Below, one piece after another: positions 2,344-25,416 of a stretch of DNA of 36,465 nt. A program made the position numbers and the translations under genes. Under the pieces are notes generated by a model. That model searched no databases, was not told where the DNA came from, and saw only the letters and a list, made by a program, of their open reading frames with translations. The first letter of the stretch is position 1, and every line of letters starts with the position of its first letter. The stretch is from Actinomycetota bacterium (GTDB lineage Bacteria; Actinomycetota; Actinomycetes; Streptosporangiales; Streptosporangiaceae), in assembly GCA_021324595.1 (NCBI GenBank), contig JAJPIV010000004.1, positions 1 through 36,465 of the forward strand, in the 5' to 3' direction.

Positions 2344-3942
2344 CTACAGGCCGGCGACGGTGACCGCCGCCGGGTGCTCGACCGTGAACCTGTGCCGGAT
2401 CACTCCCGACCGGCCAGGCGCCAGCGAGCGCGTCCAGCTCAGTTCCCCGAGGTCGGTCTGCTCGGCGGGGGCCCGGCTGGTCTCGCGCAGCCGGACCTTG
2501 ATGTCGCCGTCGGTGGAGACCGGGATGTGGTCGCGGACGGTGACCGTGGCCGGGCCGTTCCGGTGGTTCGACACAGAGATCTCGTGGGCCATGTCGATGG
2601 TGCGGATGGCCCCGAGCACCGCCTTGCTCACCTGGCGCCGCAGCAGCCGCCGCTCGATCCGCACCTGGTCATCAACCCCCAGCCGCAGCTCGAACTCCTC
2701 GCCCGGGGCGACCGTCGCCAGGGTCGTCTCGCCCGTGAACTGCCCGTCGCTGAAGAGCCTGGCGCGGCCGGGAAGGAGCAGCCAGGGCGATGAGTTGGTG
2801 ACGGTGGCGCGCAGGTAGGCCTCGGCGGCCAGGGCCGGGACCGTGAGGTGGCTCACGGCGGCGTGGAGGTCGAACCGGGCGATCGTGGTCGTGCGCGGCG
2901 CCCCGCCCGAGGGCACCGCGACCGGGCGGGTCACCCGGTAGGTCACGCTGGCTCCCGACTCGCCGCGCTCGGTGGTCAGCGGCGCGCCGGCGGTCTCGGG
3001 CACGACCGGCGCACGCGAGGTCCTGGCCGTGAGCGTCCGCTCGGGCGCCGCCCCCGCCGGGGGGCCGCCCGGCATGATCCTGGGCATGGCACCGACCGGC
3101 GGCGACGGCGCCGGCCGCGCCGGGCGGCCGATGTACCAGGGGCGCAGCTCCGGCAGGGCCTGGTGGGCGCCGCGGCGCGTGGTGGAGAGCGTGAGCTCTG
3201 CCTCCGGCCAGTCCTCCCCGGTGCGCTGGGTGACCTCGGCGAGGTAGCCCACGGCGAGCCGTTCCCCGCTCAGGGCGATGTCGTACAGCGGCTGCCAGGA
3301 CGCGTCGGCGACGTGGTAGCTCAGGTCCACCCGGGCGCTGGTCGGCTCGCGCGCCTCGATCGTGGCGCGGATTTCGAGCCGCTGGGCTGGCCCGGGCCGC
3401 TTCTCGGCGTCAGCCAGGCGGCGCTCCGCCGCGTCCAGCTCGCGCTGGGCCGATCTCTTGCGGGCGGTGATCTCGCGCAGGCGTCCCAGAGCCGCGGCCG
3501 TGCTCGCGGACAGGTGGTCGGCCATCGCCGACAGGTCGGCGTGCCCGGCCCGGCCCGCGCTCACCGCCCGGGCCATCGCGGCGGCGGCTGCCTGGGCCAG
3601 GTGGCCGGCGAATCCCAGCCGCGCCTGCTCGGCGGCGGCCTCGTCGTCGAGCTCCTGGACCGCGTCCCGCCAGCGCTCCGCTTCGGACCGCAGGCGAGCG
3701 ATCTCCCCGCGGAGCGGATCCGCGCTGAACTCGCGCCTGGCCTCCACGTCGAGCAGCGCGGCGGCGCCGCCGCGCACGGCCACCCGGACCGAGGCGGGAT
3801 CGGCGGTGGCCGGCAGCCCGCCCGCGACGACCACGCCGAGCCCGGGCGCAAGGCGCACCTCGCCAGAGCGGAGCACCCTCGCGCCGTCCGGGAAGACGGT
3901 CACCGCGCTGACCGGCGCCACGAGCGCGATCTGGTCCGGCAT
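2344..3942 (-). CDS. MuiA-like protein (DUF4140 + DUF4139)
   Basis: About 532 residues. The N-terminus carries VTVFPDGARVLRSGEV, a clear DUF4140 start (roughly residues 5-100). A central helical, probably coiled-coil stretch rich in Glu, Arg and Ala spans about 85-185. The C-terminal half is DUF4139, opening with VDLSYHVADASWQPLYDIAL and containing a Pro/Gly-rich loop near 265-330. Bacterial members are called 'mucoidy inhibitor MuiA family'; the molecular function is unknown. I chose ATG 3942 because it places GGAGCGAGGG just upstream and starts at the conserved domain; a longer open frame reaching further upstream only reads through the preceding gene in another phase. No signal peptide or membrane segment is visible. 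It sits between the His-rich membrane protein and lhgO, all on one strand with short gaps. Confidence 0.85.
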   Translation of the reverse strand: MPDQIALVAPVSAVTVFPDGARVLRSGEVRLAPGLGVVVAGGLPATADPASVRVAVRGGAAALLDVEARREFSADPLRGEIARLRSEAERWRDAVQELDDEAAAEQARLGFAGHLAQAAAAAMARAVSAGRAGHADLSAMADHLSASTAAALGRLREITARKRSAQRELDAAERRLADAEKRPGPAQRLEIRATIEAREPTSARVDLSYHVADASWQPLYDIALSGERLAVGYLAEVTQRTGEDWPEAELTLSTTRRGAHQALPELRPWYIGRPARPAPSPPVGAMPRIMPGGPPAGAAPERTLTARTSRAPVVPETAGAPLTTERGESGASVTYRVTRPVAVPSGGAPRTTTIARFDLHAAVSHLTVPALAAEAYLRATVTNSSPWLLLPGRARLFSDGQFTGETTLATVAPGEEFELRLGVDDQVRIERRLLRRQVSKAVLGAIRTIDMAHEISVSNHRNGPATVTVRDHIPVSTDGDIKVRLRETSRAPAEQTDLGELSWTRSLAPGRSGVIRHRFTVEHPAAVTVAGL

Positions 3943-9539: not shown

Positions 9540-10708
9540 GCGCGGGGCCCGCCAGTGACGTGCTGGTCGTCGGCGCGGGCGTGATCGGCGCCTCGGCCGC
9601 GTTCTGGCTCGCCGAGCTGGGGGCCGGGCGGGTCACGGTGGTGGACCGCGGCGGCGCGGGCTCGGGGATGTCGGCCAGGTCCTCCGCGCTGGTGCGGATG
9701 CACTACACCTTCCCGCCCGAGGTCGACCTGGCCGTGCTCAGCGACGCGATGTTCGACGCCTGGACCGACCTGACCGGGCGGCCCGCGTGCGTGCGCCGCA
9801 CCGGCTTCGTCCGGCTCGTTCACCCTCATGAGGAGGGGCTGCTGCGCGCGAACGTCGCGATGCAGCGGCGGCGCGGGGCGCGGGCCGAGGTCATCGGCCC
9901 CGCCGAGCTCGCCAGGATCGCGCCCGGCATGCGCGCCGACGGCGTCGGGTGCGCCGCCTGGGAGCCGCGCGGCGGCTACGGCGATGGCGCGGTCGTCGCC
10001 GGCGACCTGCTCGGCGCCGCCCGGGAGCGCGGGGTGCGCTACCTGCCCCGAACGCCGGTCCGGGCGCTGGTCACCGCCCGCGGCCGGGTCACCGGGGCGC
10101 TGACCGGGGCGGGGACACTGCACGCCGGGACCATCCTGCTCGCCTGCGGCGTGTGGACGCCGCCCCTGCTCGCCACGGCCGGGGTCGAGCTGCCGATCGA
10201 GAACGAGCTGCACAAGGTCGCGATCGTCGCCCACCGGCCGGGCGCGGGGGCGAGGGTGGCCTGCATCGACTCGGTCACGGCGACGTACTTCCGCCCGGAG
10301 TCCGGCGGCACGAGGACGCTGATCGGCGCGTTCACCGGGCCCCGGGGCGCCGACCCGGACGCGGTCCCCGAGTCGGCGGCGCCCGGGGAGGTGGCCGGGC
10401 TGGTCGGGGCCGCGGCGCGGCGGGTGCCCGCGCTGGCCGAGGCGGGCATCGCCCGCGGCGTCACCGGGGTCTACGACATGACCCCGGACGCGCGGCCGAT
10501 GCTCGGCCCGGTGCCGGGCGCGGACGGGCTGATCCTCGCGGCCGGGTTCTCCGGCATGGGGTTCAAGATCGCGCCCGCGGTCGGCGAGGCGCTCGCCGGC
10601 CTGATCACCACCGGCAGGGCGTCTCACGTGGACCTGTGGCCGTTCCGGCCAGGCCGGTTCGCCGACGGCGAGCCGATCAGGCCGGAGCACGCCTACTGCG
10701 ACGACTGA
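9536..10708 (+). CDS. DAO-family FAD oxidoreductase (glycine/D-amino acid oxidase-like)
   Basis: 390 residues from GTG 9536, which overlaps the previous stop. The N-terminal Rossmann motif is DVLVVGAGVIGASAAFWLAE (GAGVIG at 13-18), followed by GGAGSGMSARSSALVRMHY. The C-terminal part has GVTGVYDMTPDARPMLGPV and GLILAAGFSGMGFKIAPAVGE, the usual second FAD-binding end of DAO proteins such as sarcosine oxidase beta, dimethylglycine oxidase and proline dehydrogenase-like enzymes. The family removes hydride from a C-N bond of an amine or amino acid, often with oxidative demethylation or deamination. No tetrahydrofolate-binding GcvT domain is fused, so it is a stand-alone flavoprotein. Its place between a PYROXD2-like enzyme and a Rieske oxygenase suggests a step in breakdown of an imported nitrogen compound. 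Confidence 0.9.
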   Translation: MSAGPASDVLVVGAGVIGASAAFWLAELGAGRVTVVDRGGAGSGMSARSSALVRMHYTFPPEVDLAVLSDAMFDAWTDLTGRPACVRRTGFVRLVHPHEEGLLRANVAMQRRRGARAEVIGPAELARIAPGMRADGVGCAAWEPRGGYGDGAVVAGDLLGAARERGVRYLPRTPVRALVTARGRVTGALTGAGTLHAGTILLACGVWTPPLLATAGVELPIENELHKVAIVAHRPGAGARVACIDSVTATYFRPESGGTRTLIGAFTGPRGADPDAVPESAAPGEVAGLVGAAARRVPALAEAGIARGVTGVYDMTPDARPMLGPVPGADGLILAAGFSGMGFKIAPAVGEALAGLITTGRASHVDLWPFRPGRFADGEPIRPEHAYCDD

Positions 10709-20816: not shown

Positions 20817-22088
20817 ATGCACCAGCCGCCCATCCCGCATGTCCGCGGTGCCGACCCGCAGATCGCCGACCTGATCGAGTCCGAGGCCAGGCGCCAGTTC
20901 GAGAAGCTGCGCATGATCCCGTCGGAGAACTACGTCTCAGTGGCGGTCCTGGAGGCCAGCGGCTCGGTGCTGACCAACAAGTACTCGGAAGGGTACGCCG
21001 GGCGCCGCTACTACGAGGGTCAGCAGTTCATCGACCCGATCGAGACCCTCGCGGTGCAGCGGGCCAGGGACCTGTTCGGAGTCGAGCACGCGAACGTGCA
21101 GCCCTACTCGGGCTCCCCGGCCAACCTCGCCGTCTACCTCGCCATGGTCAGCCCGGGTGACACGGTGATGGGCATGGCGCTGCCGATGGGCGGGCACCTG
21201 ACCCACGGCTGGCCTGTCTCGGTGACCGGCAAGTGGTTCCGCGCGGTCCAGTACGGGGTGCGTCCCGACACCGGCAGGATCGACCTCGACGAGGTGCGTG
21301 ACCTGGCCCTGCGGGAGCGACCGAAGATCATCTTCTGCGGCGGGACCGCGATCCCGCGCACCATCGACTTCCCGGCGTTCGCGCGAATCGCCGCCGAGGC
21401 GGGCGCGGTCCTGGTGGCGGACATCGCCCACATCGCGGGCCTGGTCGCCGGGGGCGCCCACCCGTCGCCAGTCGGCCACGCCAGCATCATCACCACGACC
21501 ACGCACAAGACGCTGCGCGGGCCGCGCGGCGCGATGATCATGAGCACGGCTGAGCACGCCACGGCGATCGACCGCGCGGTCTTCCCCGGCCTGCAGGGCG
21601 GGCCGCACGACCACACCACCGCGGCGATCGCCGTCGCTCTCAAGGAGGCGGCCACCGGCGAGTTCCGCGCCTACGCGCACCAGGTGGTCGCCAACGCCCG
21701 GGCGCTGGCGTCGGAGCTCTCCGAGCGCGGGTACCGCCTGGTCTCCGGCGGCACCGACAATCACCTGATCCTCATCGACCTGACGCCGCAGGGCATCGGC
21801 GGCAAGCCTGCCGCCCGTGCGCTCGACCGGGCCGGCATCGAGGTGAACTACAACACGGTGCCGTACGACCCGCGCAAGCCATTCGACCCGTCCGGCATCC
21901 GGATCGGCACGCCGGCGATCACCACGCGCGGCCTGGCCCCGGAGCACATGCCGCAGGTGGCGGCGTGGATGGACGCGGCCATCAGCGCCGCGATCAAGGA
22001 CGACGACGCCGCGATCGAGCGCATCGCCGGGCAGGTGCGCGACATGCTCGCCGCCTTCCCGATGACAGGGTTCGCCGCGCAGCCCTGA
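20817..22088 (+). CDS. glyA: Serine hydroxymethyltransferase
   Basis: 423 residues from ATG 20817 with AGGAGG six bases upstream. It interconverts serine and tetrahydrofolate with glycine and methylene-tetrahydrofolate, using PLP. Seen: MIPSENYVS near residue 33, LTNKYSEGYAGRRYY at 52-66, ADIAHIAGLVAGG at 201-213 with the PLP-contacting Asp and His, and the Schiff-base Lys231 in TTTTHKTLRGPRG. The segment GLQGGPHDHTTAAIAVALKE differs from the common GGPLMH form but is known in other SHMTs. Length fits the family. It has its own ribosome site and probably its own promoter, divergent from the MFS gene. It could be the housekeeping copy or could serve glycine and C1 units from the nearby oxidation operon; the sequence does not decide. 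Confidence 0.97.
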   Translation: MHQPPIPHVRGADPQIADLIESEARRQFEKLRMIPSENYVSVAVLEASGSVLTNKYSEGYAGRRYYEGQQFIDPIETLAVQRARDLFGVEHANVQPYSGSPANLAVYLAMVSPGDTVMGMALPMGGHLTHGWPVSVTGKWFRAVQYGVRPDTGRIDLDEVRDLALRERPKIIFCGGTAIPRTIDFPAFARIAAEAGAVLVADIAHIAGLVAGGAHPSPVGHASIITTTTHKTLRGPRGAMIMSTAEHATAIDRAVFPGLQGGPHDHTTAAIAVALKEAATGEFRAYAHQVVANARALASELSERGYRLVSGGTDNHLILIDLTPQGIGGKPAARALDRAGIEVNYNTVPYDPRKPFDPSGIRIGTPAITTRGLAPEHMPQVAAWMDAAISAAIKDDDAAIERIAGQVRDMLAAFPMTGFAAQP

Positions 22089-22109
22089 CCTCGCCGGGCG
22101 CAGGCCCCC

Positions 22110-22129
22110 GCCCCGCTGCCCGGGGCTTT
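22110..22129 (+). terminator. Terminator after glyA
   Basis: GCCCCG, loop CTGCC, CGGGGC, then TTT: a 6-bp GC stem with a short T run, 22 bases after the glyA stop. Confidence 0.55.
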
Positions 22130-22249
22130 GCGCGGTCGGCCCTGCCCGCCGGGGCAGGAGGCGGGCCCGCCGGGCCGGCCCCGGAGCCGGCCGCCTCCTG
22201 CCGCCCGGCCGGCCCGGACCGAAGCGAATACGTTTCTCAAGGCAAGCTC

Positions 22250-22278
22250 TTGTCATAGCCATCGCACGAATATATGTT
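22250..22278 (+). promoter_or_regulatory. Promoter of the DUF6504 gene
   Basis: TTGTCA at 22250-22255 and TATGTT at 22273-22278 are spaced by 17 bases. The -10 lies inside the SOS box, so LexA bound there would block RNA polymerase. Confidence 0.4.
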
Positions 22279-22280
22279 CG
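22267..22280. promoter_or_regulatory. SOS box (LexA-binding site candidate)
   Basis: CGAATATATGTTCG matches the actinobacterial LexA consensus CGAAC-N4-GTTCG at nine of ten fixed bases. A third half-site CGAAC follows at 22284-22288, three bases after the GTTCG. It lies about 115 bases before the DUF6504 start. Confidence 0.65.
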
Positions 22281-22396
22281 ATGCGAACGGCCATCTGCCT
22301 TCCCCACGGTGGCCTCGGGCACGGCGGGCCCGCGCCGCTGCCGCGTCGGCCGACCTGGCCGCCGGCGGGTGCCGGGCGAGCGGGGAGGTGGCGGCG

Positions 22397-22642
22397 GTGA
22401 GCGCGGTGCGACCGGAGCCGGCGCAGGTCTGGCTGAGTGAGGACAAGCCGGCCAGGTTCGTCTGGCGGGGCCGGCGGTACGCGGTGCTGTCAGTCCTCGA
22501 GTCCCCGCAGGAGGAGGCAGCGCAGGCATGGCGATGCTGGCGGGTCACGGCATCGCCGGCGCGCGGCGTCCCGGGCTCGGCCTTCCGGCTGTGCCTGGAT
22601 CTGGAGCGCGGGAACTGGTACCTCTGGCGGGATCAGGCGTAG
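22397..22642 (+). CDS. DUF6504 family small protein
   Basis: 81 residues from GTG 22397, preceded by GGGAGG with eight bases spacing; GTG 22388 is an in-frame alternative. An upstream in-frame ATG at 22274 lies inside the SOS box and is not credible. The protein reads QVWLSEDKPARFVWRGRRYAV-like sequence at about 10-30, then WRCWRVTASP and FRLCLDLERGNWYLWRDQA. The core 'P-x-x-F-x-W-R-G-R-x-Y' and the later 'W-R-V' and 'W-x-L' pattern fit DUF6504, a small actinobacterial domain that I recall near the ImuB/DnaE2 mutagenic repair genes. Function is unknown. Here it stands alone, but the SOS box upstream agrees with a damage-induced role. Confidence 0.75.
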   Translation: MSAVRPEPAQVWLSEDKPARFVWRGRRYAVLSVLESPQEEAAQAWRCWRVTASPARGVPGSAFRLCLDLERGNWYLWRDQA

Positions 22643-23031
22643 GGGCGGCGCCGGGACGGCGCGGGCGTGGCCGCGTCTTTCTCATGCGGGGGTAAAGAAA
22701 CGCGCCAGGGAAGGGCTGCATGGCGCGCCGCGTTCGTGCCGCGCCGGGGCGGCGGCTAATGTCGGTCGGCGCGACGGGAAGGCGCATGTCCGAATGGCAG
22801 CGCGCCGGGCGTGCCGTGCGATCGGCGCCGGGGGGCTGATCGGGCGGCGGCACACGGGGAAGGGCGTTGGGCCACGATGAGCAGCGGGGGGACAGCGGGC
22901 GCGGCCTGGGCGCCCGCGGCGGCCGGGGGCGCGGCCCAAGGTGACGGGGGCGGGCAGGGCCCGGCCCGGGGTGCGGGGAGGCCGGCCCGGGGTGCGGGGA
23001 GGCCGGCCCGGGGTGCCGGGAGGCCGGCCGG
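22643..23031. other. Intergenic region, low-complexity, with imperfect hairpin and triple repeat
   Basis: No convincing gene. An imperfect hairpin pairs CGCGT (22672-22676) with ACGCG (22700-22704) and a few more bases toward a GGGGG-containing loop; it may end the DUF6504 transcript. A frame from ATG 22877 to a TGA at 23087 would encode about 70 Gly/Ala/Arg/Pro residues and touch the TTG at 23086, but it has no ribosome site and no family features. The three 21-bp repeats lie at 22960-23022. Confidence 0.5.
22960..23022. repeat. Three tandem 21-bp repeats
   Basis: Unit GCCGGCCCGGGGTGCGGGGA plus G is present at 22960-22980, 22981-23001 and 23002-23022 with one mismatch in the first and one in the third copy; a partial fourth follows. 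The last copy supplies GGGAGG, the possible ribosome site of the next gene. Confidence 0.92.
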
Positions 23032-25416
23032 GTGGACGGCGGCCGGGCAGCGGCCGGAGGCGCCGCGGCGGCCGGGCATTCCGGATTGAGCGGCGTGCGC
23101 GGTGCCCGGCGGGCCGCGGCGGTGGTGGCGGTGGCGATCGCGGCCTCGGCGGCAGCCGCTGACCTCACGGGCGCGGGAACGCGCGGAGCGCCGGGCACCG
23201 GTGCCCGCGCCCGGCTGGCCGGGACTCCGGCCGCGGGCCAGGTGGCGGCCAGCGCATCCGGGCCGGGGCTCCGGCGGGTCAGCTACCGCGGCTACACCTT
23301 CGCCGTGCCGCACGGCTGGGCGGTGATCGACGAGCGCGCCCGGCCCACCGCGTGCGTGCGGTTCGACCAGCACGCCATCTACCTGGGCAGCGTGAGCCCG
23401 CGGGAGTTCTGCCCGAGCTGGCTCATCGGCACCACGGAGGCGATGCTGGTCCAGCCGGGCCCGGCCGCCGCCCGCCCCGCCGCCGTCCTGGACGCCGTGG
23501 CCCGCCAGGTCGTCGTCCAGGCGCCCGGGGTGCGGATCACCGCCACCTACGACACCAACCTGGCGCTCATCGAACGGGTGCTGCGCGGCGCCTCGCTGCC
23601 CGTGCCGGGGGCCGGCAACGGGGTGGCCGCCACGCGGGGGGCGGCCACCGAGCCTTGGGCAGCCGCGGCGATCGCGTCGGCCAGCGGCGCGTCGGCGAGG
23701 GCGGTGCCGCCGCTGCCCGCCACGGTGGCGAGCTATCAGGGCCTCGGCTTCGACGCCTGCGCAGCGCCGAGCTCCAGCTACATGACCGCCTGGCGGCGCC
23801 GTTCACCGTACCGCGCGATCGGGATCTACATCGGCGGCGCCGACCGGGCCTGCGCGCAGCCCAACCTGACCCCGTCCTGGGTGCGCCAGCAGGCCGCCGC
23901 CGGATGGCGCTTCATCCCGCTCTACGTCGGGCCGCAGGCCGAGTTCGGCGAGGTGCGCGCCCCCGTCTGGCAGGGAACGGCGGCAGCGCGGGACGCGGCC
24001 GCGCAGGCCCGGCGGCTTGGCTTCGGCCCGCGCACCCCGATCTACTACGACATGGAGGCCTACCGGCCCAGGTGGCGGGGCACGGTGCTGCGGCTGCTGT
24101 CCGCGTGGACCACCGAGCTGCACCGGCTCGGCTACCTGTCCGGTGCCTACAGCAGCTCGGACTCCGGGGTCGCCGACCTGGCGGCGAGCTACTTCAGCCG
24201 CGCCTACGCGATGCCCGGCATCATCTACGACGCGCTGTGGAACGGAGTCCGCAGCACCGCCGACCGGCACTTCCGGCCGGGTGAATGGGCGCACCACCAG
24301 CGGATCCACCAGTTCCGCGGGAACGTCACGCGCGAATACGGCGGGGACCGCATCAACGTCGACCTTGACGTGCTCGACGTGCGGATCACCAGCGCGACGG
24401 CGACGATCCAGCCGAGCCAGGCCGTCGCGCTGCCCGGCCAGGCCGCCGACCTGTTCTACCGCGCGCGTGGCGGGATGCTGATGTTCGCCCAGTTCCGGCC
24501 GGGCTCCGGGTGGGGCAGGCCACGGCGCACAGGGCTGGTCGCCCGGTCGGCGCCGTCGGTGGTGCGGACCGGATCGCTGGTGGACGTCGTGTACCAGGGC
24601 GGCTCGGGACGGATCTGGGCCGCCTCGTTCCGGCCCGGCGGCACGCTGGTCAGCCGCAGCCGGCTGACCGCGCTCGGCATTGCCGGCTCGGCGCCGCGCG
24701 CGGTCGCCAGGGGCGGCGTCATCGACGTGTTCTGGCGAGGGTCGGCCGATGATCACCTGTGGCATGGCGAGTACGCGCCCGGTGACGGCTGGAGCGGCCC
24801 TCAGGACCTCGGCGGGAGCCTGGCCTCGCCGCCGTCGCCGGTCGTGGCCGGGTCGGGCCGCATCGACGTGTTCTGGAAGGGCCGGGACGCCAGCCTGTGG
24901 TACACGGCCAGCGCATCCGGCGCCCGCTGGTCCGCCCCGGCCAGCCTGGGCATGGGCCCGCTCGGCGGGCCGCCGATGGCCACCGCCCAGCCGGACGGCG
25001 CGGTCCAGGTCTGCTGGGCGGGGTCGGGGAACCCCCATGTGTGGGAGGGGTTCTACCAGCCGGGCCGCGGCTGGCGCGGGCCGCGGGACCTGGGCGGGGT
25101 GCTCCGGTCCGCGCCCTGGCCGGTGACCGCCGGCGGGGTGGCGCGGGTGCTGTGGCTGGGCCCGGGTCACGCGCTGGACGGCATCGAGCACCGGCCGGGC
25201 GGCGAGTGGAACCGCTCCGGCTGGCGGGTCCAGCCGTCCCTGCGGGGCGCGTGGGTGGCCGCGGCGCCGTTCGCCGCCGCGGGCGGGCGGGGGCAGGTGC
25301 TGCGGGCGTTCTGGCAGGGGCGCGGCGGGTGGCTGTGGGCGGCGGCTCTGGCGAGCGACCGGTGGTCGGCCCCGCGCCGGCTGGCCGCGACGCCGCCGCG
25401 GCGGGGCCAGCGCTAG
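23032..25416 (+). CDS. Secreted DUF1906 (Rv2525c-like, glycoside-hydrolase-like) protein with C-terminal seven-repeat propeller
   Basis: 794 residues from GTG 23032 (GGGAGG eight bases upstream); TTG 23086 and GTG 23095 are alternatives. A basic n-region (RGARR) and an Ala/Val-rich helix form a signal peptide ending near residue 45. A small domain follows at about 80-160 (YRGYTFAVPHGWAVID, CVRFDQHAIYLG). The DUF1906 domain spans about 228-455: SYQGLGFDACAAPSSSYMTAW, YRAIGIYIGGADRAC, GWRFIPLYVGPQA and PIYYDMEAY, whose Asp-x-Glu recalls the GH25-like active site of Rv2525c relatives. From about 465 to the end seven units of roughly 46 residues repeat (IDVFWRGSADDHLWHGEYAP, IDVFWKGRDASLWYT and so on), as in PLL/tectonin-type beta-propeller lectins. 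Probable role: cell-wall glycan binding and cleavage outside the cell. It ends in a 3-base overlap with the convergent gene. Confidence 0.85.
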   Translation: MDGGRAAAGGAAAAGHSGLSGVRGARRAAAVVAVAIAASAAAADLTGAGTRGAPGTGARARLAGTPAAGQVAASASGPGLRRVSYRGYTFAVPHGWAVIDERARPTACVRFDQHAIYLGSVSPREFCPSWLIGTTEAMLVQPGPAAARPAAVLDAVARQVVVQAPGVRITATYDTNLALIERVLRGASLPVPGAGNGVAATRGAATEPWAAAAIASASGASARAVPPLPATVASYQGLGFDACAAPSSSYMTAWRRRSPYRAIGIYIGGADRACAQPNLTPSWVRQQAAAGWRFIPLYVGPQAEFGEVRAPVWQGTAAARDAAAQARRLGFGPRTPIYYDMEAYRPRWRGTVLRLLSAWTTELHRLGYLSGAYSSSDSGVADLAASYFSRAYAMPGIIYDALWNGVRSTADRHFRPGEWAHHQRIHQFRGNVTREYGGDRINVDLDVLDVRITSATATIQPSQAVALPGQAADLFYRARGGMLMFAQFRPGSGWGRPRRTGLVARSAPSVVRTGSLVDVVYQGGSGRIWAASFRPGGTLVSRSRLTALGIAGSAPRAVARGGVIDVFWRGSADDHLWHGEYAPGDGWSGPQDLGGSLASPPSPVVAGSGRIDVFWKGRDASLWYTASASGARWSAPASLGMGPLGGPPMATAQPDGAVQVCWAGSGNPHVWEGFYQPGRGWRGPRDLGGVLRSAPWPVTAGGVARVLWLGPGHALDGIEHRPGGEWNRSGWRVQPSLRGAWVAAAPFAAAGGRGQVLRAFWQGRGGWLWAAALASDRWSAPRRLAATPPRRGQR

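Follow-up and report, generated by a model that had tools for sequence, protein, structure and literature searches.

A probable LexA-controlled gene for a stand-alone ImuB-C (DUF6504) protein, separated from dnaE2 in an actinobacterial genome

Does a small gene that commonly accompanies dnaE2, the gene of an error-prone polymerase, remain part of the SOS response where it stands alone, and with what would its product then work? The question is raised by a DUF6504 gene in a stretch of 36,465 nucleotides (the window; contig JAJPIV010000004.1 of assembly GCA_021324595.1) from a member of the Streptosporangiaceae. An earlier note on this DNA had placed a LexA-type SOS box over the promoter of the gene, had linked the family to the mutasome genes imuB and dnaE2, and had suggested that a stand-alone, SOS-controlled copy would support a direct role in the damage response. 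The sequence comparisons described here support this reading in its three parts (SOS box, mutasome link, stand-alone gene). We put the probability at roughly 80% that LexA represses this locus as an SOS gene encoding a stand-alone ImuB-C protein, which is linked to dnaE2 in relatives and would here be a separate, boxed subunit acting in trans.

Results

The gene lies on the forward strand at 22397–22642 and spans 81 codons from a GTG at 22397. A longer frame of 122 residues begins at an ATG at 22274, which sits inside the SOS box and is not conserved; orthologues align only from the GTG, which is preceded at a distance of 8 bases by GGGGAGG (22382–22388, forward strand), a probable ribosome-binding site read from the sequence. 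Judged by the orthologues, the true start is probably the GTG, about 120 bases past the start of the long frame in the box, which gives a product of 81 residues and a leader of about 100 bases. The sole Pfam match of the long frame was PF20114 (DUF6504), which scored 23.3 bits where the curated cut-off is 24.2. Within the genus, the model matched the genes of genomes G001 and G003 above the cut-off (26 and 25.2 bits) and gave no match in G002 and G004, whose DUF6504 genes were recovered by protein search (the G004 copy is a fragment at a contig end). The window copy shares 63% identity with that of G002 and 61% with that of G003, and it has lost an HW...WW segment. These comparisons indicate that the DUF6504 domain of the window gene is real but diverged.

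The gene had been described as isolated, which was borne out here and, by eye, in two sister species. It stands between the serine hydroxymethyltransferase gene glyA (20817–22088; Pfam SHMT) and an Rv2525c-like glycoside-hydrolase-like gene (23032–25416; PF08924; start uncertain), both on the forward strand; by eye, G002 and G003 show this gene order too, with a similar downstream gene. The genome yielded a single copy of DUF6504. Tandem-like GGCCGGCCCGGGGTGCGGGGA repeats occupy 22960–23030, just 5′ of the Rv2525c-like gene.

Upstream of the DUF6504 gene, CGAATATATGTTCG (22267–22280) differs from CGAAC-N4-GTTCG by one base, as the earlier note had it; the 16-mer ACGAATATATGTTCGA (22266–22281, forward strand), which includes the flanks, scores 10/12 against TCGAAC-N4-GTTCGA. 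The hexamers TTGTCA (−35-like, 22250–22255) and TATGTT (−10-like, 22273–22278), on the same strand and 17 bases apart, form the sole promoter-like site in 22090–22420 (mean of 0.0 in 50 shuffles). The −10-like hexamer falls within the box, confirming the overlap proposed before. We aligned the promoter with those of four relatives, three from the window genus and one from the same family: the box, the TTG and the distance between them are kept in all four amid much altered upstream DNA (the G001 box scores 9/12). The extra CGAAC half-site that had been noted three bases further on is present in the window (22284–22288, forward strand), but it is missing in the four aligned relatives and is not conserved.

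By itself the box match is weak, and within the window alone it is not above chance: the window holds five one-mismatch sites (at 10049, 13085, 17870, 22267 and 27710) and 26 sites with at most two mismatches versus 18.6 expected, a number reached in 4 of 100 shuffles. We judge the box to be beyond chance because it is conserved in orthologues and has twin sites elsewhere in the genome. Among 93 DUF6504 genes from 73 of 100 genomes (the window genome and 99 relatives; the G004 copy, cut by the contig end, excluded), 83 carry a box scoring at least 10/12 in the 450 bases that precede the conserved F.W motif; in 60 of the 93 genes it scores 11 or more, and in 26 it is perfect. In the controls, 4.0% of 4,194 same-locus windows and 1.8% of 2,790 shuffles reached at least 10/12, and none of either reached 11. 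For named genomes, many of them of Actinomadura, Nonomuraea, Sphaerisporangium and Actinoallomurus, a box of at least 10/12 was found within 350 bases upstream in 78 of 80 DUF6504 loci, and at 11 or more in 60 (controls, 3.3% and 15 of 3,768, respectively); the two sets share at least two contigs, as loci L202 and L252 look like ones already in the 93-gene set. The orthologous promoters thus largely keep the box, the genes without one of at least 10/12 being ten in the first set (G001 among them) and two in the second. Five one-mismatch matches in a single window could suggest that the palindrome arose by chance and that the gene lies outside SOS control; the retention of the box in both sets, at a fixed place on the promoter, makes this extremely improbable.

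The twin sites were sought in the whole genome of the window (168 contigs, 97% complete). The pattern CGAAY-N4-GTTCG occurs at nine places (13 strand hits versus 2 for the reversed pattern). Five of these precede genes, namely recA, ruvC, imuA'-imuB, a SAV_6107-like HEPN gene and the DUF6504 gene (recA, ruvC and imuB were named by eye from translations, ImuA' and HEPN by model matches), and the remaining four fall inside long coding-like frames. T at the sixth place of the 16-mer is found in three of the five pre-gene boxes, the DUF6504 box included, and in 11 of the 83 boxes of the 93-gene set; the 'mismatch' is, therefore, a recurrent variant. The genome also has lexA, with two 11/12 boxes upstream. 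The gene thus shows the sequence features of actinobacterial LexA-controlled SOS genes: a box near consensus, placed on the promoter and conserved, in a genome with boxed lexA and recA. The LexA regulon described for Streptomyces venezuelae (PMC9380542) is alike in its tCGAAC-N4-GNNCGa motif and in the boxes on recA, lexA and dnaE2; unlike here, 'imuB' and 'DUF' appear nowhere in the main text of that paper.

The boxed HEPN gene was followed further. SAV_6107-like HEPN genes (PF18726) are found in 76 of the 100 genomes, and in 16 genomes, none of the window's family, the HEPN match lies just 3′ of DUF6504 in the same orientation; in G090 and G093, for instance, it is flanked by DUF6504 and dnaE2. 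We examined the best 30 of 78 HEPN places (loci in relatives: L283–L312, L153 and L155), seven of them DUF6504-linked and 23 not. Twenty of the 23 non-linked loci carry an SOS box of at least 10, and 14 one of 11 or more (controls, 4.5% and 21 of 846), and none of the seven linked loci has a box above 10. The HEPN gene of the window genome is on its own, next to a gene that by eye is metF-like, on contig C21 (L043, 3688–4191), with the box ACGAATCTATGTTCGA at 3610–3623. From these boxes, the SAV_6107-like HEPN gene looks like an unrecognised SOS gene. In the literature searched, the term SAV_6107 occurs in PMC3710099 alone, which lists it without gene context in the passage covered.

The name DUF6504 was not met in the literature searched. 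In Deinococcus deserti, an 80-residue gene between a Y-family gene and dnaE (plasmid 1, found by its place) carries the annotation DUF6504 and matches PF20114 with 30 bits; a Deinococcus review (PMC8072749, as far as covered) names the 80-residue gene between imuY and dnaE2 of this species ImuB-C. Because the D. deserti ImuB-C gene matches PF20114 and bears that name in the literature, DUF6504 and stand-alone ImuB-C are, by this comparison, one family, at least in Deinococcus and Abditibacteriota. We also sought proof within the sequences: a Trp-rich stretch and a final GxW can be seen by eye in both DUF6504 and the ImuB C-terminus, but an hhalign comparison of the DUF6504 profile with the ImuB C-terminus scored 14.5, and column shuffles reached 15.3. 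This candidate proof was, thus, rejected, and since the profile comparison is not significant, it is the Deinococcus gene, together with the literature, that supports the identity.

In size, predicted fold class and conserved residues, what has been written of the ImuB C-terminal domain fits the window protein. According to the parts covered of the papers concerned, the domain also occurs alone and is found beside Ku/ligase and SplB-like genes (Aravind and colleagues, PMC3765255), stand-alone ImuB-C is found in operons with dnaE2 and Y-family genes (Timinskas and Venclovas, PMC6511836), and ImuB-C binds the PHP domain of DnaE2 in an AlphaFold model of Mycobacterium tuberculosis ImuB (PMC12926913). 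The window product is likewise small (81 residues, with no polymerase domain) and mainly beta in its predicted model: AlphaFold2 gave six strands and no helix (pLDDT 87.9, pTM 0.78), and seven strands for a typical relative (pLDDT 86.4, pTM 0.76). W74 and R78 are invariant and R24 and R26 nearly so in 42 sequences, which fits the C-terminal Trp and basic residues described in the covered part of PMC3765255. The family described in these three papers, as far as covered, is thus alike in being small, all-beta, SOS-linked and, in relatives, often directly before dnaE2. It is unlike the window gene in that the latter has glyA and an Rv2525c-like gene as neighbours, no polymerase or repair gene, and a full-length ImuB-like gene in the same genome. 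The Deinococcus system, in the accounts covered, shares the DUF6504 family and SOS control with the window gene, but its parts all sit in one operon. The family has, therefore, already been named and linked to SOS in print, and the idea of a direct role is not new. The less known part is the orphan, polymerase-free and still LexA-boxed form; the literature on stand-alone ImuB-C, in the parts covered, describes no such isolated form in Actinobacteria.

Structure searches added no homologue. The window model had no confident match in PDB/BFVD (best E 0.89), nor had that of the relative (best E 0.046; Z up to 7.0, a range that the tool calls common). A PDB sequence search with the DUF6504 profile gave nothing at E up to 1, and one with the ImuB-like protein gave two Y-family hits, none over its C-terminus; PMC12926913, as far as covered, likewise reports no closely related PDB structure for ImuB-C.

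The earlier note was right that DUF6504 genes lie near imuB and dnaE2. We split the dnaE2-like matches listed in the 100 genomes by hand, by gene company and by identity to one DUF6504-linked polymerase, into a DnaE2B-like group (about 48–77% identity; named for the gene company given in PMC12926913) and a DnaE2A-like group (about 34–38%, often beside ImuB); the labels were given without a tree, and weak or fragmentary copies may be missed. Among the matches listed, DUF6504 is present in 47 of the 49 genomes with a DnaE2B-like gene versus 27 of the 51 without (Fisher p 5e-7, kinship ignored). In 35 loci the DnaE2B-like match lies 3′ of DUF6504 in the same orientation and no more than about 1.1 kb away, and in 20 of these the gap is within 100 bases (distances between match ends). 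The 80 named loci comprise 69 with a DnaE2B-like gene in the flank, one with ImuB and DnaE2A, and ten with neither, two of which (L206 and L260) are near contig ends. In G061 the order is DUF6504-imuB-dnaE2A, and in Abditibacteriota and Deinococcus DUF6504 stands between a Y-family gene and dnaE2; an Abditibacteriota plasmid reads lexA, a small gene, a Y-family gene, DUF6504 and dnaE2. A place beside dnaE2, a Y-family polymerase gene or another repair gene is the usual context of the family and not a defining one. DUF6504 was found in three plasmid records and in no phage record in searches of the two; on the plasmid of Thermaerobacter sp. FW80 (L196, 5995–6246), no polymerase is annotated within 12 kb, and toxin-antitoxin-like and transposase genes lie nearby.

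The arrangement of the 35 loci, where DUF6504 and then a DnaE2B-like gene are in some cases followed by a dinB-type gene (one checked with Pfam), resembles the actinobacterial DnaE2B-[ImuB-C] and DnaE2B-[ImuB-C]-PolY-RecA modules of PMC12926913, except that the window genus yielded no DnaE2B-like gene among the matches listed. According to the covered part of that paper, DnaE2B occurs in genomes without ImuA or ImuB. Four genomes (G017, G024, G041 and G052) depart from this pattern, holding a DnaE2B-like gene as well as ImuB and DnaE2A-like genes; contamination, estimated at 7, 5, 1 and 2%, may account for the presence of both types.

This neighbourhood bears on a proposal of Aravind and colleagues, by which ImuB-C itself would bind damaged DNA and recruit repair enzymes, needing no particular polymerase. 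Its occurrence without DnaE2B-like neighbours, and beside Ku/ligase and SplB-like genes in the report cited above, agrees with the proposal; the strong operon link to dnaE2 speaks against it, as does the lack of a confident fold match, hence of any to a DNA-binding fold (best E 0.89 for the window model, Z up to 7.0). We regard such a role as doubtful.

We found genes for all three members of the ImuA'-ImuB-DnaE2 mutasome in the window genome. ImuA' scores 136 bits to NF058630, above its cut-off. For the adjoining ImuB-like gene, Pfam gave nothing at E 0.1 and Pol IV models matched only below their cut-offs; its protein is 50% identical to the ImuB of G061, which matches PF00817. A DnaE2A-like gene, whose match spans one TGA, lies on the same contig, and the two C-family matches listed for the genome are this gene and the presumed DnaE1. 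With these genes present besides a lone ImuB-C, the latter might compete with the C-terminal domain of ImuB for DnaE2A and so damp the mutasome. We think this unlikely, since DUF6504 occurs in 13 genomes that lack ImuB and both DnaE2 types (hand picks, among the matches listed); at E up to 1e-60, eleven of these show just one C-family match, and a second is present in G009 and G056.

Neither the window genome nor its four congeners, two of them no more than 81% complete, showed a DnaE2B-like gene among the matches listed. Such uncoupling is seen repeatedly: a box of at least 10 is kept in 32 of 35 DUF6504 genes of genomes without a DnaE2B-like gene versus 51 of 58 with one. In a tree of the short domain (84 columns, with many weakly supported nodes), the unlinked genes are spread over several positions: they form a clade of the window genes with G028 (0.98), a clade of 16 genes (0.999) and a paralogue clade of 20 (0.87), and others occur singly among operon-linked genes. 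A divergent kinase gene that flanks the operon of G030, a genome of the window's family, is still present at 17 of 23 unlinked loci examined, and dnaE2 is present in none of the 23 within the stretches examined. The kinase alone is soft evidence, as it belongs to a large family; firmer are G025 and G012, where both flanks match G030, dnaE2 is gone from between them and a DnaE2B-like gene lies elsewhere in the genome. In G025, transposon-like frames separate the kinase gene from DUF6504. A second DUF6504 paralogue group (SLYNERIDVRSTTGGHP...; L132–L148 and L150, for example L134 and L137) has no adjoining polymerase in six loci viewed by eye, and its box, where present, is mostly about 88 bases before the conserved motif, near the start codon.

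An orphan of this kind could be a leftover of the loss of a neighbouring dnaE2, with the SOS promoter and the reading frame functionless and decaying. The window copy is indeed diverged, with the HW...WW segment lost, and dN within the genus is high (0.30–0.38). However, dN/dS is 0.19–0.44 in six in-genus pairs (dS 0.8–1.6, near saturation) and the fold model is confident. Moreover, box and gene are kept in several separate clades, and the 32 boxed genes without a DnaE2B-like gene include several from assemblies with between one and four contigs (G016, G022 and G027). Decay is, thus, quite improbable. The same 32 of 35 genes point to a probable role of ImuB-C in the damage response that is independent of a neighbouring polymerase.

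The leader contains CTTCCCC (22299–22305, forward strand), which can pair with the GGGGAGG at 22382–22388. CTTCCC follows the box in 45 of 83 leaders, whereas the commonest hexamer in 100 base shuffles occurred at most 22 times, and of the 22 folded leaders containing it, 11 show it paired to the ribosome-binding region. Leader folding energy was, however, ordinary (mean z −0.3 in 31 leaders), and pairing with the leader's own ribosome-binding region exceeded that of swapped leaders by only about 2 s.d. (22 leaders, 200 permutations). The hairpin is, therefore, kept as no more than an observation.

Discussion

LexA bound over a −10 element represses transcription, and RecA-driven cleavage of LexA releases it. 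By this mechanism, LexA on the observed box would cover the −10 of the DUF6504 promoter and block transcription, and DNA damage would free the promoter through RecA-induced LexA cleavage. The 81-residue, six-stranded product would most likely dock on translesion polymerases. With no DnaE2B-like gene found in the genus, the protein may have been left as a separate, still SOS-boxed subunit, probably working in trans with ImuA'-ImuB-DnaE2A or with a Y-family polymerase and RecA. ImuB-C lies on the DnaE2 PHP domain in the model of PMC12926913 (as far as covered), and ImuA'-ImuB-DnaE2A would, therefore, be the nearest client in the window genome. The 13 genomes that, by the hand picks, have DUF6504 and no ImuB or DnaE2 of either type make a Y-family polymerase with RecA, or damaged DNA, candidate clients as well.

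A wider reading, to which we give somewhat less than even odds, is that ImuB-C became an independent SOS effector after repeated loss or movement of dnaE2 in actinobacteria, serving another client (one of the three candidates just named), and that it forms with the HEPN gene a scattered, co-regulated remnant of a DUF6504-HEPN-dnaE2-dinB operon.

If the locus is indeed an SOS gene for a separate ImuB-C subunit, strains that hold only the boxed ImuB-C gene, with the adjoining polymerase gone, would be natural experiments separating its role from that of DnaE2, and the SAV_6107-like HEPN protein may be an added candidate for the same damage-response set.
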